Below are positions 8,320-14,897 of a stretch of 42,330 bases of DNA, piece after piece. The notes beneath the pieces were generated by a model. It ran no database searches. It saw only the letters and a list, made by a program, of their open reading frames with translations, and had not been told where the DNA came from. This stretch comes from Candidatus Desulfaltia sp. (GTDB taxonomy: Bacteria; Desulfobacterota; Desulfobacteria; Desulfobacterales; ETH-SRB1): contig JAUSPN010000004.1 in the NCBI GenBank assembly GCA_030656555.1, positions 1 through 42,330 on the forward strand. Reading direction: 5' to 3'. Numbering within the stretch: position 1 is the stretch's first letter; every line of letters begins with the position of its first letter. The position numbers and the translations under genes are program-made.

Positions 8320-10911
8320 CTATACTACAATACTTACCAGCTTCTTTTTAACGACAATGATCTTTTTTATGGGTTTATCATTTATGAATTTCCTTGCGCG
8401 TTCATCTGAAAGGGCTATCTCTTTTATGGCAGCATCGTCCGCATCAGCGCTCACGCTGAATCTGCTGCGAAGTTTGCCGTTTACCTGCACTACTATTTCA
8501 AGGCTGTCTCGCACAAGAGCATCTTCCCTGTATGATGGCCATGATTCCAAAAGAACGCTGGATTTACGCCCCAGGGCATACCAGAGTTCTTCAGCAAAAT
8601 GTGGAACTATGGGTGACAAAAGCAGTATGACCGATTCCATGGCAAATCTCATTACCCCTGCAGCGTTAGAGCTTTTTGCTGCAGGGTCTATGCCGTACAT
8701 GGTATTAACAAGCTCCATTACAGCGCTGATTGCTGTATTGAAATGGAACCTGCTTTCTATATCATCGGTAACCTTTTTTATGGTTTGATGGGCTTTTTTA
8801 TATAAAACCAGTATGCTTTCGTCCAGTTCGTCAGAATTGCCGTTAAAAGGGATCGCCTCTTTTATTAAATCGATCCAGACTGCCGCAAGGCTCCATATAC
8901 GATTCAGAAAGCGATATCCACCCTCAACTCCCTGGTCGCTCCATTCAAGATCCCTTTCCGGCGGAGCCGCAAAAAGACAAAAGAGTCGTGTAACATCAGC
9001 ACCGTATTGTTTTAGCATAATATTTGGGTCTATTACATTCTTTTTTGACTTGGACATCTTTTCAACCCGGCCAATTATAACCTTGTTGCCGCATTTTTTG
9101 CAAAAACCGCCTTCGGCTTCTTCAGGGAAAAGAAATCCATGCTCAGGACAGGAGGTAGTCTCCTTGCAGACCATACCCTGTGTCAGCAGTCTGGTAAAAG
9201 GCTCCTTGTATTTGACAAGCCCAAGATCTTTAAGCACACGCGTAAAATACCTTGAATAAAGGAGATGCAAAATAGCATGTTCAACCCCGCCGATATATTG
9301 ATCAACCGGCATCCAGTAGGAAACAGCCGCTGCATCAAACATGCCGCCATTGTAATCTGCGCTGCAGTATCTCTCAAAATACCAGGATGATTCAACAAAA
9401 GTATCCATTGTGTCGGTTTCTCTTTTTGCGTCAGGACTGCCGCACTTTGGGCATCTGGTTTTTGCAAAATAATCAAGACCTGCGAGCGGCGACCTTCCTC
9501 CGGGAAGAAGATCAGCCTTCTCAGGCAATACAACCGGAAGATCCTCTTCCTGGGCAGGAACAACCCCGCATTTCTTACAGTAAACTATGGGAATGGGGGC
9601 GCCCCAGTAACGCTGCCTGGAAATACCCCAATCTCTTAACCTGAAGTTGACTGTTTTTTCTCCAAAACCTTTTTCATCAAGAAAAGAAGCTATTTCATCA
9701 AGAGCTTTTTTATTATCCAAGCCGTCAAACTGGCCGGAATTAACCATAACCCCTTCGCCTGTATATGCTTCGGTTATGGTAGCAGCGTCGAGGTCCTTAT
9801 CAGAAGGTTTAACAACAATAATAATGTCAAGCCCGTATTTTTTGGCAAATTCAAAATCACGCTGGTCATGTGCGGGCACCGACATAACAGCGCCTGTGCC
9901 ATATCCCATGAGAGCAAAATTAGCTGTATATATCGGCATGCGCCTGCCGCTTAAGGGATTTATGCAATATGAACCTGTAAAGACCCCTTCCTTTTCATAA
10001 TTTTCAACAGCTTTGTCTGATCTATCCTGCATTGACATCTGTTCCACAAATTCTCTGATCTTATCTTCCTGGCCCGTGCCTTTTGAAAGCTCAGACACAA
10101 GCGGATGCTCAGGAGCAAGACACATGAAGGTTGCCCCGAAAACCGTATCCTGGCGGGTTGTAAATACAGGTATCACTTTTTCTGAATTATCTTTGGCCTT
10201 TTCAATCGGAAATCTTATCTGTGCACCGATACTTTTGCCGATCCAGTTTTTCTGCATGGTGATGACCTTGTCTGGCCAGCCGGGAAGCTTGTCACAATAA
10301 ACAAGCAAATCTTCTGCATAGTCGGTTATACGGAGAAACCACTGCCAGAGCTTTTTCTGGCGAACAGGTTTTCCGCATCTCCAGCACATACCAGCCTCTA
10401 CCTGCTCATTGGCAAGAACAGTTGTGCAGGTATTGCACCAGTTTACAAAGGACTCTTTTCTATATGCCATCCCCCTTTCATACATCTTTAAAAACAGCCA
10501 TTGTTCCCATCTGTAATATTCGGGCTCGCAGGTGGCTATTTCTCTGTCCCAGTCATAGCTGAAACCTATTTGCTTCAACTGAGATCGCATCGTCTTGATA
10601 TTATTGTATGTCCATCCGGCGGGATGAGTATTGTTTGCAATAGCAGCGTTTTCCGCGGGCATTCCAAAAGCATCCCATCCCATTGGATGCAGAACATTAA
10701 ATCCCCGCATTCTTTTATATCTTGCGACCACATCCCCTATTGTGTAGTTTCTGACATGACCCATGTGTATCTTGCCTGAAGGATAGGGAAACATCTCAAG
10801 AAGATAATACTTTTCCCTGTCAGGATCTTCTTTACACTTAAACAGCCCTTTCTCATCCCAATAGGATTGCCACTTTGATTCAACAGTTTTTGGGTCGTAT
10901 TTCTTGTCCAT
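8320..10911 (-). CDS. leuS: Leucyl-tRNA synthetase
   Basis: This 863-residue class I synthetase charges tRNA-Leu. The HIGH-type motif [11 protein letters not shown] is at residues 42-52 and KMSKS at 618-622. Between them lies the CP1 editing domain ([27 protein letters not shown]). Zinc-binding Cys pairs occur in [16 protein letters not shown] and CKKCGNK. The bacterial-type C-terminal domain ends the protein ([11 protein letters not shown]). Length is normal for bacterial LeuRS. lptE follows on the same strand after about 115 bp of repeats. Confidence 0.98.
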
Positions 10912-11024: not shown

Positions 11025-11948
11025 TCATGGCTTTATCGTTGTAAACAGGCCTCCATTTTCCCGTTTGATGACTCCTCTTCCAAGGAAAGTATTCATAATT
11101 TCATTATATTTCCTTTCGTACTCACCATTAAAATAAAGCTCAACCGTCTCTTTAAACCAATAGGTATCCATAAGGTCTGAGAAAAAGGTGTTTTCTTTAA
11201 CAGTCTTCTTCATCAAAAGTGTATAAACCATGATCTTTTTTATCAGATCATCACCAACAGTCTCTCGACAAAGCAAATACCTTTCAATCTTTTCCTTACT
11301 TTTTGATATGGCCTTTTTAATGTCATCAAAGGGTCTCCCGTGGCCGGGATAAACTATTTTCACATCAAGAGATTCAAGTTTCTGAAGAGATTCCAGCATG
11401 TGAAACAATGCCATGCTCCCTTCAACGCGTAGTGTCATTACTGCCACATCACTCTCCCAAAGCGCATCAGAAGATATGAGAATTTTTTCCCGGCTGTTAT
11501 ATAGGACAATGCCATCAGAAGCATGCCCTGGAGTATAAATTACCTGGAATTTATGAGGCCCGACAGCGATAATTTCGCCATCCTCCAGTGCTTGTGTACA
11601 TTTAAAAAAATCAGCTTCCTGGTTATAGTATCTCCACCATGTAGACCAATCATCTTGAGTGTCGATAAAATATTTACCGGCTTTGTGCAAGGCAATATCA
11701 CACCCGGATTTTTGCTGAATGATTTTATTGCCGCCTATATGATCACAATGGGTGTGGGTATTAACAATTAAGGAAATATCAGAAAGGTTTACCCCCAATC
11801 TTGTTATTGATCTATCTGTTTCGTTGAAGTCGGAAATATAGCCTGTATCAATAAGAATCGGGGCTTTAGATCTATAAACAAAGTGATTTCCGCTTAGATA
11901 ACCTCTTTCGATAAAAAACAGATCCTCTAAAATTTCATTCTTAAACAT
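11025..11948 (-). CDS. Metallo-beta-lactamase-fold hydrolase
   Basis: The 307-residue protein carries the two-metal centre signature THTHCDHIGG, followed by TPGHASDGIVLY, SSDALWESD and YPGHGRPFDD. It belongs to the glyoxalase-II-like branch of MBL hydrolases; the substrate cannot be read from sequence. The C-terminal ~90 residues are helical. It lies 92 bp downstream of two YeeE/YedE genes on the same strand. In BigR-type sulfide operons an MBL persulfide dioxygenase sits beside such transporters, but the motifs here are not specifically those of ETHE1, so a sulfur role is only a possibility. Confidence 0.85.
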   Translation of the reverse strand: MFKNEILEDLFFIERGYLSGNHFVYRSKAPILIDTGYISDFNETDRSITRLGVNLSDISLIVNTHTHCDHIGGNKIIQQKSGCDIALHKAGKYFIDTQDDWSTWWRYYNQEADFFKCTQALEDGEIIAVGPHKFQVIYTPGHASDGIVLYNSREKILISSDALWESDVAVMTLRVEGSMALFHMLESLQKLESLDVKIVYPGHGRPFDDIKKAISKSKEKIERYLLCRETVGDDLIKKIMVYTLLMKKTVKENTFFSDLMDTYWFKETVELYFNGEYERKYNEIMNTFLGRGVIKRENGGLFTTIKP

Positions 11949-11987
11949 GTGTATTATATCTTAAATTGGCACGCTAACAATCAGAAT

Positions 11988-12023
11988 GCGCCGCTTCGGT
12001 TTGGCCGCAAAGCAAAGCGGCGC
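11988..12023. repeat. GC-rich intergenic hairpin
   Basis: GCGCCGCTT (11988-11996) pairs perfectly with AAGCGGCGC (12015-12023) across an 18-nt loop, in an otherwise AT-rich gap. There is no T-run directly after the stem on either strand, so it looks like a repetitive extragenic palindrome rather than a classical terminator. Confidence 0.5.
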
Positions 12024-12040
12024 AGCTAACTCTAATATAT

Positions 12041-12565
12041 TTAAATGTTTTTATTTTGAAAAAATTTAAACAGCATTAAAATCGCAACAATAAAAATAAA
12101 AATAATAACCCAATGGTTTATTTTTAATATATCCGGCACAGTGATTTTACCTAAATTACCCCAGGCTAAAACATTGCTTTTTAGTGCCGGGTATACTTCA
12201 GCATACAAACCAGCTCCAACTAACATTCCCAATATAGCCCACAACGCGTGTATGCGTCCTTCACCTAAAGCTCCTAATGATGTTCCCGGGCAATATCCGG
12301 CAATAGCCCAACCAATGCCAAAAAGCAATCCACCTATAATTTGAGCAGCTACGTCAGTTGCCTTAATGCTAAATGAGATAATACCAAGATCTTTGCAAAG
12401 GTATATACCCACTGCGCCAACCATAATCGCTGAAAGCATAAATTTAATGATAGTCATATCTTTAAGCAGCAAAAAACCAACTTGTCGTTCAAACCGTATA
12501 GCTTGCGCTTTTTGTAAAAAGAAACCAAAGAGGATGCCTGTAATAATACCTAATAGAAGTCCCAT
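12041..12565 (-). CDS. YeeE/YedE-type sulfur transporter, second half-protein
   Basis: The 174-residue membrane protein has about four to five hydrophobic segments and the conserved motif GYCPGTSLGALGEGRIHALW. The Cys in GYCPG matches one of the essential cysteines of TsuA-type thiosulfate channels. The other cysteine motif is on the neighbouring gene, so the two half-size proteins probably assemble into one transporter. The genes are separated by 2 bp. Start has a strong AAGGAGG upstream. Thiosulfate or a related sulfur ion is the likely substrate, by family knowledge. Confidence 0.85.
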   Translation of the reverse strand: MGLLLGIITGILFGFFLQKAQAIRFERQVGFLLLKDMTIIKFMLSAIMVGAVGIYLCKDLGIISFSIKATDVAAQIIGGLLFGIGWAIAGYCPGTSLGALGEGRIHALWAILGMLVGAGLYAEVYPALKSNVLAWGNLGKITVPDILKINHWVIIFIFIVAILMLFKFFQNKNI

Positions 12566-12567
12566 AA

Positions 12568-13107
12568 TTACTTTCCTCCTTTATATAGTATTTTAGCAGT
12601 AATTATGCCGCCAATAATAAAACATGCCATAGCAATAAACCCGCTTACGGCAAGTTGCATAATGCTGCTTAATCCATGGCCACTGGGACATCCACCGGCA
12701 AGACGCGCACCAAACAAAAGGATAATCCCCCCGATAAAAGCGCCTGCTCCGCGAACAACAGCGCTATTACCAAATCGTTGTTTCCATATATCAGGAACAA
12801 ATTCTTTTTTGTAACTTTTCCCAAGAAGAGATGATAACAACGATCCTATAAAAATACCCAATACTACCATCATCTGCCAATCTACTTTTATTTTTTCATA
12901 TAGGAAGTACTCGTTAGTATCGGCATGCTCTTTTGCAACCTGTTGTTCAATAAGTCCGGTTACGCGAACAAACGTAGTTGAAGCACCGAGATACATGGGT
13001 TTTGATAATACTTTCGTAGAGACAACTACGGACAAAATGGCCAGTATGCCTACGAAAGCTCCAGCTAAATAAGGACTCCAAACGCTTTTGGTTAAATAGT
13101 TTTTCAT
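12568..13107 (-). CDS. YeeE/YedE-type sulfur transporter, first half-protein
   Basis: The 179-residue membrane protein has about four hydrophobic segments. The diagnostic motif is GARLAGGCPSGHGLSSIMQL, whose Cys corresponds to a conserved substrate-relay cysteine in TsuA/YeeE proteins. A soluble-looking stretch (about residues 45-70) separates the first two membrane segments. It is followed after 2 bp by the second half-protein and preceded by two exported thioredoxin-fold proteins. Together these suggest uptake and redox handling of a reduced sulfur compound in the envelope. Confidence 0.85.
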   Translation of the reverse strand: MKNYLTKSVWSPYLAGAFVGILAILSVVVSTKVLSKPMYLGASTTFVRVTGLIEQQVAKEHADTNEYFLYEKIKVDWQMMVVLGIFIGSLLSSLLGKSYKKEFVPDIWKQRFGNSAVVRGAGAFIGGIILLFGARLAGGCPSGHGLSSIMQLAVSGFIAMACFIIGGIITAKILYKGGK

Positions 13108-13216
13108 TTTAACTCCTTTCTTAACGAAACCTTTGCAAAACTATCGCTATTTGTCATTTTGACCAAAGAAAGAAATCTTAACAAACTTAAACCTCAACAG
13201 CGGGGTTTTCACGCTA

Positions 13217-13822
13217 CTATTTGTTGAGCTTCTCCAGTTCCCTTACGATGGACTCGAGGCGCGGCCGTTTATTTATATCATGTACGTCGATATAATGGAT
13301 GATGCCTTTCTTGTCGATTATAAAAAGCGCCCTTTCCGCAACTCCATCGGAACGCAACACACCATATGTGTCAGCTACCCTGCCGTGAGGCCAGAAGTCG
13401 GAAAGAACAGGAAACCATAAGTCCCCCATCTGGTTCGTCCATGCAAAGAGAGTCGGAATATTGTCCACCGTAATTCCTAAAAGTATGGCATCGTTTTTAT
13501 CAAATATGCTTTTCACAATGCCGTAGCCGGGCCACTGGTCCGAACAAACCGGAGTCCATGCTGCAGGAACAAAAGATATGACCACGTTCTTTTTCCCGAC
13601 GTACCGGCTAAGGGAAATTTTTCCCCCGGAAACTGCGGGAAGCGTAAAGTCAGGAGCACTATCTCCTGTCTTTACCTTCAAAACACTGTCTGTGGGCTTG
13701 AGTTTTTTAGGGTCATAAATATTATCCTTAAAGACATCTGAAAGACCGTAGGAAGAAGTTGTACCAAGAAAAAAAATCAGCACGATTCCTATCAGGACAC
13801 TGAGACAATTACTTTTTTTCAT
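13217..13822 (-). CDS. Exported peroxiredoxin-like protein (AhpC/TSA, 1-Cys type)
   Basis: This 201-residue protein has a signal peptide (about residues 1-26) followed by a peroxiredoxin fold. The active-site motif PAAWTPVCSD places the peroxidatic Cys at residue 93 with the usual Thr three residues before; the family Arg is in AERALFII. No second Cys is present in the mature part, so it would be a 1-Cys enzyme needing an external thiol donor. The adjacent CxxC protein is a natural candidate. Most peroxiredoxins are cytoplasmic, so the signal peptide is notable. It has a strong AAGGAGGTG and an 11-bp gap to the upstream gene. Confidence 0.88.
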   Translation of the reverse strand: MKKSNCLSVLIGIVLIFFLGTTSSYGLSDVFKDNIYDPKKLKPTDSVLKVKTGDSAPDFTLPAVSGGKISLSRYVGKKNVVISFVPAAWTPVCSDQWPGYGIVKSIFDKNDAILLGITVDNIPTLFAWTNQMGDLWFPVLSDFWPHGRVADTYGVLRSDGVAERALFIIDKKGIIHYIDVHDINKRPRLESIVRELEKLNK

Positions 13823-13833
13823 TTCGCACCTCC

Positions 13834-14409
13834 TTAATTTAATCCGGACAGTTGAAGCATCATGTCCAGGAATTGATCAGGATTGTTGACACCGCCAAGC
13901 TTGGAATAAAAAACCCGGTGAGTTCCATCATTATTGATTTTGATTCCTATGAAATATGGAGTTCTGACCTCTCCCACAGCCTTGTGGATGGAATAATCCA
14001 TATCTGGAAAAAGAGGAAAAGGGATATCGTATGTTTGCGCGAATATTCCTACCTCGTAGGAAGAATTTCCTGCTCCGATTCCTGTTAATTTGACTTTACC
14101 CTTCGACTTCGGATTATCTTCTATAACATTATATAGTTTGTTCACGGTGCGCGCATTGCCCTGGCAATGAGGACAATACATGCTGAAAATCTGGATGAGT
14201 ACTACCTTCGCCTTGATCTGGGGTATTTTGAAGAAACCGGAAGCTGGAAGGCCAAGATAGCTTCTATCGCTATCTTTTACAGGCACAGCAAGGTTTATTT
14301 CCGGCAGCATAGCCCCTTCTATCGGAGCCGATTCAGCAGTCATAACAGGAAAACTAAAAACAAAAACACAGACGGCAATGGCTATAAAATGTATTAGAAT
14401 TTTTTTCAT
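13834..14409 (-). CDS. Exported thioredoxin-like protein with CPHC motif (TlpA/ResA type)
   Basis: The 191-residue protein has a signal peptide (residues 1-27) and a thioredoxin fold with YCPHC (Cys79, Cys82) and the cis-Pro region RTPYFIGI. It is probably a periplasmic thiol-disulfide reductant. The start at 14409 is chosen over ATG 14418 because AAGGA lies nine bases before it but directly abuts the first ATG. It is the first gene of a run: this protein, peroxiredoxin, two YeeE/YedE halves and an MBL hydrolase. Reduction of the neighbouring peroxiredoxin or of a transported sulfur compound is inferred from context. Confidence 0.85.
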   Translation of the reverse strand: MKKILIHFIAIAVCVFVFSFPVMTAESAPIEGAMLPEINLAVPVKDSDRSYLGLPASGFFKIPQIKAKVVLIQIFSMYCPHCQGNARTVNKLYNVIEDNPKSKGKVKLTGIGAGNSSYEVGIFAQTYDIPFPLFPDMDYSIHKAVGEVRTPYFIGIKINNDGTHRVFYSKLGGVNNPDQFLDMMLQLSGLN

Positions 14410-14564
14410 GGTTTTCATTCCTTTCTTGTAAGTTACTCTTAAGATGATGTTTTTTCTATTTTAAATCTTTTCACCCATAAAATTACCTCCTTTTTTGCTT
14501 TGTATCAGACTGCGCCATAGGCGGAGCCCATTAATTGTAAAGACAATATTGAAGAGCCCTGTAA

Positions 14565-14596
14565 CCCCCGCAGCAAGCTACGGGGAATGCGCTCGC
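14565..14596 (-). repeat. REP-like GC-rich repeat, copy 1
   Basis: The 32-bp sequence contains CCCCG and CGGGG arms around GCAGCAAGCT. Its reverse complement matches 19788-19817 with only a few changes, including the flanking GCGAGCGCATT. It is a dispersed palindromic repeat. Confidence 0.6.
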
Positions 14597-14897
14597 TATT
14601 GCGGTTCAAATGTGATTGACATTTGTCAAACCCCATAATTGTTTCTTGATTTTAATATATATGCTATATATCATCTTGTATTTAATGAAAATACAAGAAT
14701 TATGTCGTCTTTAAAGACTTCGAAAACTTCAGGATCAGATCAATATGCGGTAGATTAAAAGGAATTATTTAGAAGAAATTTAGTTCAGAGCCATGCCCAT
14801 TACCAAGCCGACTAATCTAAACATATAAAAAATTATCAATAATATAACGATACGTCAAGTTATTTGCTTATTAATGGACGCATACGCTCGGCTTAAA

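Follow-up and report, generated by a model that had tools for sequence, protein, structure and literature searches.

An exported CPHC protein-peroxiredoxin gene pair head to tail with a half-size YeeE/YedE gene pair in Candidatus Desulfaltia

The window analysed here, a stretch of 42,330 nucleotides from the sulfate-reducing bacterium Candidatus Desulfaltia sp. (GenBank assembly GCA_030656555.1, contig JAUSPN010000004.1), contains a run of five genes on the minus strand. They encode, in this order, an exported thiol-disulfide protein with a CPHC motif, an exported peroxiredoxin (Prx), two half-size YeeE/YedE proteins (C-half and N-half), and a metallo-beta-lactamase (MBL)-fold hydrolase (Table 1). 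A reading made from the sequence alone had placed five open reading frames (ORFs) of these families here, and the ORF list and Pfam agree with it. The outer boundary that it gave, 14409, does coincide with an in-frame ATG, but this is the second one, the first lying at 14418. Both YeeE halves matched Sulf_transp (E 4e-18 and 4e-26), and the CPHC protein matched AhpC-TSA weakly, below the cut-off (E 5e-5). According to the ORF coordinates, the intergenic gaps are 11, 109, 2, and 92 bases, and the first three, from the CPHC gene to the N-half gene, could be compatible with a single transcript. The locus consists of two separate two-gene modules, A (13217-14418; CPHC protein and Prx) and B (12041-13107; the YeeE pair), and one unrelated gene, that of the MBL hydrolase. 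We consider it probable that module A serves as a peroxide reductase of the envelope and module B as an importer of sulfane sulfur or a thiosulfate-like species, two independently conserved modules that stand head to tail.

Table 1. Features of the locus (window positions)
Feature	Position	Strand	Basis and remarks
CPHC protein, exported ResA/TlpA-fold thiol-disulfide protein	13834..14418	(-)	ORF; start possibly 14409 (second ATG)
Peroxiredoxin (Prx), exported, AhpE-like 1-Cys	13217..13822	(-)	ORF; Pfam AhpC-TSA, E 2e-31
YeeE C-half (PmpA/YedE1-like), half-size YeeE/YedE	12568..13107	(-)	Pfam PF04143 positions 171-310; Sulf_transp
YeeE N-half (PmpB/YedE2-like), half-size YeeE/YedE	12041..12565	(-)	Pfam PF04143 positions 13-154 and DUF6691
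Hairpin, 17-nt arms, 88% complementary, 4-nt loop	11987..12024	(-)	Inverted repeat and folding energy
MBL-fold hydrolase	11025..11948	(-)	Pfam Lactamase_B, E 8e-25

The CPHC protein combines a MYCPHC active site (C82 and C85) with an RTP cis-Pro loop, and its profile matches ResA. Its AlphaFold model (mean predicted local distance difference test score, pLDDT, 90.5) found the ResA structures 1su9 and 1st9 as best Foldseek matches, with TM-scores of 0.82-0.83 by target length. A hydrophobic N-terminus is present in 119 of 123 relatives. The thioredoxin fold, the CxxC motif, the cis-Pro, and export, judged from the hydrophobic N-terminus, thus all agree with the ResA/TlpA family. The Prx carries the motif PAAWTPVC, in which C93 is invariant in 128/128 aligned sequences, while P86, T90, and C93 together with R164 are conserved to 97-100%. 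The PxxxTxxC motif and the catalytic Arg are accompanied by no second conserved Cys (beyond residue 35, 113 of 127 relatives contain only one Cys), which is the pattern of the AhpE-like 1-Cys class; M. tuberculosis AhpE was the best sequence match in the PDB. A signal peptide is predicted, and 126/127 relatives have a hydrophobic N-terminus. At the alignment position that we take to be that of His39 in Prx6, all 128 sequences have Val or Ile, which does not agree with the Prx6 type.

A search for the Prx gene in genomes that carry organism names gave 392 candidates, of which the best 80 were examined. The CPHC gene lay upstream on the same strand in 78/80 loci, less than 100 bases away in 68; the two loci without it are L164 and L200 (G, C, and L numbers are our handles for genomes, contigs, and loci). 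A YeeE gene was near in only two of the 80. Within 5 kb of Prx, counted over 132 partly redundant loci, we found genes for ferritin-like proteins (17), rubrerythrin (12), desulfoferrodoxin (9), octaheme cytochrome (8), and Fur (5), almost always on the same strand. Pfam served to check the assignments of ferritin-like proteins and octaheme cytochrome, whereas rubrerythrin, desulfoferrodoxin, Fur, and the KatG mentioned below were named from reading the sequences. The proposal that the CPHC protein is a dedicated Prx partner is borne out by this adjacency and has a precedent in Caulobacter, where ScsB-TlpA-PprX is an envelope peroxide pathway (Cho et al. 2012, as relayed in PMC5403849). Module A most likely reduces peroxide in the envelope, as a pair comparable to TlpA-PprX.

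In module B each half contains one conserved Cys motif, as had been noticed from the sequence: GYCPG in the N-half and GGCPSG in the C-half. In profile alignments, C140 of the C-half (GGCPSGHG) aligns with Cys293 and C92 of the N-half with Cys91 of Spirochaeta thermophila TsuA, residue numbers being counted on printed alignments. In the available portions of PMC11582611, PmpA corresponds to the C-terminal half of TsuA with Cys293 and PmpB to the N-terminal half with Cys91, both Cys being indispensable. For YedE1E2 (CpYedE1E2), import of zero-valent sulfur, lowered reactive oxygen species, and a requirement for both Cys are stated in the excerpts available of PMC10812762. These precedents agree with the earlier view of the pair as a thiol-dependent sulfur importer. 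The N-half directly follows the C-half in 97 of 99 C-half matches (97 stretches), the exceptions being a truncated copy (L120) and a copy at a contig end (L246). Against the NCBIfam model of TsuA the halves scored 53 and 48 bits (cut-off 400), and a full-length TsuA/SoxT, which has three conserved Cys in one chain of 330-350 aa, is not what these genes encode, since they give two chains. Module B is a PmpA/PmpB (YedE1/YedE2)-type pair and most likely imports sulfane sulfur.

Relatives of three of these proteins have in-frame TGA codons, read as selenocysteine (Sec), at the Cys positions in question. Of 133 CPHC sequences, 10 have TGA in place of the first Cys codon of CPxC, and 16/41 C-halves (43/99 in a larger C-half set) have it in place of the GGCPSG Cys codon; it also stands at the peroxidatic Cys (WTPV*) of two exported Prx homologues (G026 and G016; L302 and L303). 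A YeeE selenoprotein (GUxSG) is already listed in the available parts of PMC9312934 and PMC13188914, and the CPHC-like and Prx Sec proteins belong to known classes there, matched by class and not by accession. SelA was useless for telling Sec from Cys genomes, being found in 31/33. One C-half with an in-frame TGA (L084, 7279-7788) comes from a genome, G069, that gave no SelA match.

The five genes had been read as one operon, and this was ruled out by the neighbourhood survey. Among 389 genomes of the window's order, Prx was found in 123 (E<=1e-55), the C-half in 93 (E<=1e-30), and both in 42; in 40 of these 42 the YeeE pair and Prx were unlinked. Unlinked occurrence in relatives, which the sequence-only reading itself had named as refuting the operon, extends to the same genus: G201 has the YeeE pair (89% identical) on one contig and Prx (75%) on another. 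Nucleotide homology likewise falls into two blocks, window 14427-13217 matching G202 and G206, and window 13124-12040 matching the unlinked G201 pair at 90%. Besides the window, A and B adjoin in G206 and, with a truncated C-half below the threshold, in G202 (Candidatus Desulfaltia bathyphila). The gene order there is octaheme hydroxylamine oxidoreductase (HAO)-like cytochrome, CPHC protein, Prx, triheme c7-type cytochrome, and YeeE C-half, followed by an N-half in G206 only; the window has neither cytochrome.

The two cytochromes flank CPHC-Prx in close relatives at L121 2588-6759, L120 3137-6642, and L122 4897-8259. CPHC-Prx is followed by a YeeE pair in L121 and by a truncated C-half in L120, and in L122 a transposase-like ORF, recognized by eye (8477-8941), occupies the place expected for the YeeE pair after the c7 cytochrome. 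The G201 pair (L124, 7018-11821) lies downstream, on the same strand, of genes for a Rieske protein, a cytochrome b, and two ethylbenzene-dehydrogenase-like heme proteins. A GC-rich hairpin upstream of the window's CPHC gene (14566-14589) adjoins window positions 14587-14608, 22 bases that have a near-match in L124, and is possibly a dispersed repeat.

YeeE pairs are also found repeatedly next to peroxiredoxins of another kind. PrxU, a widespread selenocysteine peroxiredoxin (NCBIfam NF040737, 422 bits), was present in 139/389 genomes of the order, 48 of which also had a C-half. In 9 of these 48, from 5 families and 6 genera, the C-half lay less than 2 kb from PrxU, upstream, downstream, or divergent, where roughly 0.07 would be expected by chance; the count is inflated by shared descent and deflated by draft contigs. 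Outside the order, YeeE pairs stand beside PrxU in L095, L154, and L155 and beside another TGA-bearing Prx in L089. Two loci (L078 and L093) have YeeE pairs beside KatG and Fur. The tree of C-halves places the window and G201 in a 33-row clade (SH-aLRT 96) and G206 in a 19-row clade (SH-aLRT 99) with nine PrxU-linked pairs; the adjacencies in the window and in G206 therefore involve different YeeE lineages. The repeated adjacency in related bacteria hints at a shared job, and the A-B neighbourhood seen here, though lineage-specific, is part of a recurrent link between YeeE pairs and peroxiredoxins. Co-occurrence of Prx and C-half by genome exceeded expectation in the order (42 vs 29.4, P 0.001) and in a phylum sample (18 vs 14.0, P 0.10, with a loose C-half threshold; 13 vs 8.5, P 0.05, with a strict one), but was given little weight because kinship was uncorrected.

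A second YeeE locus lies in the window's own genome, which also encodes SelA. On contig C89 (L036, 9581-10994) a YeeE half precedes a second one that carries a fused TlpA-like domain, and a DsbD_N domain protein comes next. The fusion contains two in-frame TGA codons (CPTU and AGUP), one of them at the conserved Cys position, and is a putative double-Sec protein. Among the other loci collected for the comparison no homologue was found. The fusion gives independent support for coupling a thioredoxin-like domain to YeeE halves.

The MBL gene, which had been counted as a member of the system, is judged to lie outside it, because a hairpin separates it from the YeeE pair and no counterpart adjoins either module in the examined loci of relatives, where the weak matches were MBL-rhodanese type proteins. 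The hairpin is strong (-26.3 kcal/mol; z -3.7 for 11975-12030) and, having no T-run, is not a textbook terminator; the terminator scan listed nothing between the pair and the MBL gene despite it. A promoter-like TTGTTA-16-TATAAT is present upstream of the gene at 11980-11953, in a scan that overall performed no better than chance. The protein scored 36 bits against NF040641 (cut-off 625), and the BigR-type yeeE-yedE-pdo arrangement, with a persulfide dioxygenase beside the pair, was not found.

In the reading that we favour, Cys93 of the exported Prx would reduce H2O2 or a hydroperoxide and become a sulfenate. Cys82 of the CPHC protein would attack the sulfenate and Cys85 would resolve the product, and a membrane thiol carrier would re-reduce the CPHC protein. 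In the PmpA/PmpB-type heterodimer, the inward path of a sulfane-sulfur or thiosulfate-like species would run between two Cys, Cys140 in the C-half and Cys92 in the N-half. Here a single transcript could span A and B, and both would probably answer the same stress, namely the encounter of reactive oxygen with sulfide and sulfane sulfur; that they act jointly is plausible.

Several results weigh against this reading. The adjacency of A and B is confined to two of the 42 order genomes with both, the window's own (G000) and G206, and the window's 33-row YeeE clade is otherwise without peroxiredoxin linkage, one other row standing beside KatG-Fur. No dedicated DsbD or ScsB was seen in the window's genome, whose only DsbD_TM match is CcdA-like and lies in an arsenic-type cluster. 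Folding like a selenocysteine insertion sequence (SECIS) was weak in C-half genes (mean z -0.74 in 8 Sec vs -0.08 in 12 Cys genes, with a pattern that missed the DGU Sec genes) and absent downstream of the CPHC TGA (z -0.17 in 10 Sec vs 0.01 in 106 Cys sequences).

The separation of A and B in most genomes, the same genus included, and the two blocks of nucleotide homology would also be expected if two separately useful modules had become neighbours by chance, with no joint function. We regard such an incidental adjacency as unlikely, albeit a serious alternative: G206 has a YeeE pair of a different clade, grouped with PrxU-linked pairs, behind the same CPHC-Prx, YeeE pairs recur beside peroxiredoxins, and the window's genome encodes a YeeE-TlpA fusion. 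A tighter coupling seems quite improbable to us. Here the Prx would use envelope sulfide as co-reductant for peroxide, and the CPHC protein or its UPxC form would unload the resulting persulfide onto or beside the YeeE pair, which would import the sulfane sulfur; the Sec/Cys interchange would then mark three sulfur-handling centres, and the fusion would represent that final step in a single chain. The earlier view, that the thioredoxin-fold proteins serve mainly in thiol-based capture of reduced sulfur species that the MBL hydrolase processes, finds support in the fusion and in the proposal, in the available text of PMC11582611, that SoxT transporters act together with SoxS and other thiol-disulfide proteins of the periplasm. 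It is very improbable, given that CPHC-Prx is kept without a YeeE pair and near oxygen-defence genes instead, and that the MBL gene is unlinked. Equally improbable is that module A acts on sulfane sulfur and not on peroxide, with the Prx as a persulfide or S8 reductase and the CPHC protein as its partner, since its neighbours include rubrerythrin, desulfoferrodoxin, and Fur, and the Prx6 histidine needed for a fast reaction with sulfide is, at what we take to be the equivalent position, Val or Ile throughout. Such chemistry does occur: in the available portions of the sources, cyanobacterial PrxI reduces S8 (PMC9426444) and 1-Cys peroxiredoxins form persulfides with sulfide (PMC12697902; work on AhpE as a reference in PMC7315123).

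Two things emerge from the analysis: in Desulfobacterota, a conserved pair of exported CPHC protein and peroxiredoxin, and a recurrent genomic link between half-size YeeE transporters and peroxiredoxins, no description of which was found in the literature searched. If the link is real, import of sulfane sulfur would be tied to oxygen defence in strict anaerobes. Sec exchange in nature also points to Cys residues worth mutating.

The closest likeness of module A is Caulobacter ScsB-TlpA-PprX, as far as it is described in PMC5403849. In both, an extracytoplasmic TlpA-like thiol protein is paired with an extracytoplasmic peroxiredoxin, here by conserved gene pairing. In contrast, no ScsB was found beside our pair, and the Prx is AhpE-like and 1-Cys, the comparison with PprX being made on its published description; moreover, module A is found in anaerobes, with rubrerythrin and desulfoferrodoxin genes among its neighbours, and has Sec forms. 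Module B resembles PmpA/PmpB, that is YedE1/YedE2, in its two adjacent half-size genes and in the single Cys of each half, which correspond to TsuA Cys293 and Cys91. It differs in the length of its halves (174-179 aa vs about 130) and in having a peroxiredoxin, not a persulfide dioxygenase, beside it. The motif of the YeeE/YedE selenoprotein (GUxSG), as given in the parts available of PMC9312934 and PMC13188914, has the same position as in the Sec forms of the relatives; the copy in the window has Cys instead. The Prx shares the 1-Cys class with M. tuberculosis AhpE and differs from it in that a signal peptide is predicted and the gene has a conserved CPHC partner.

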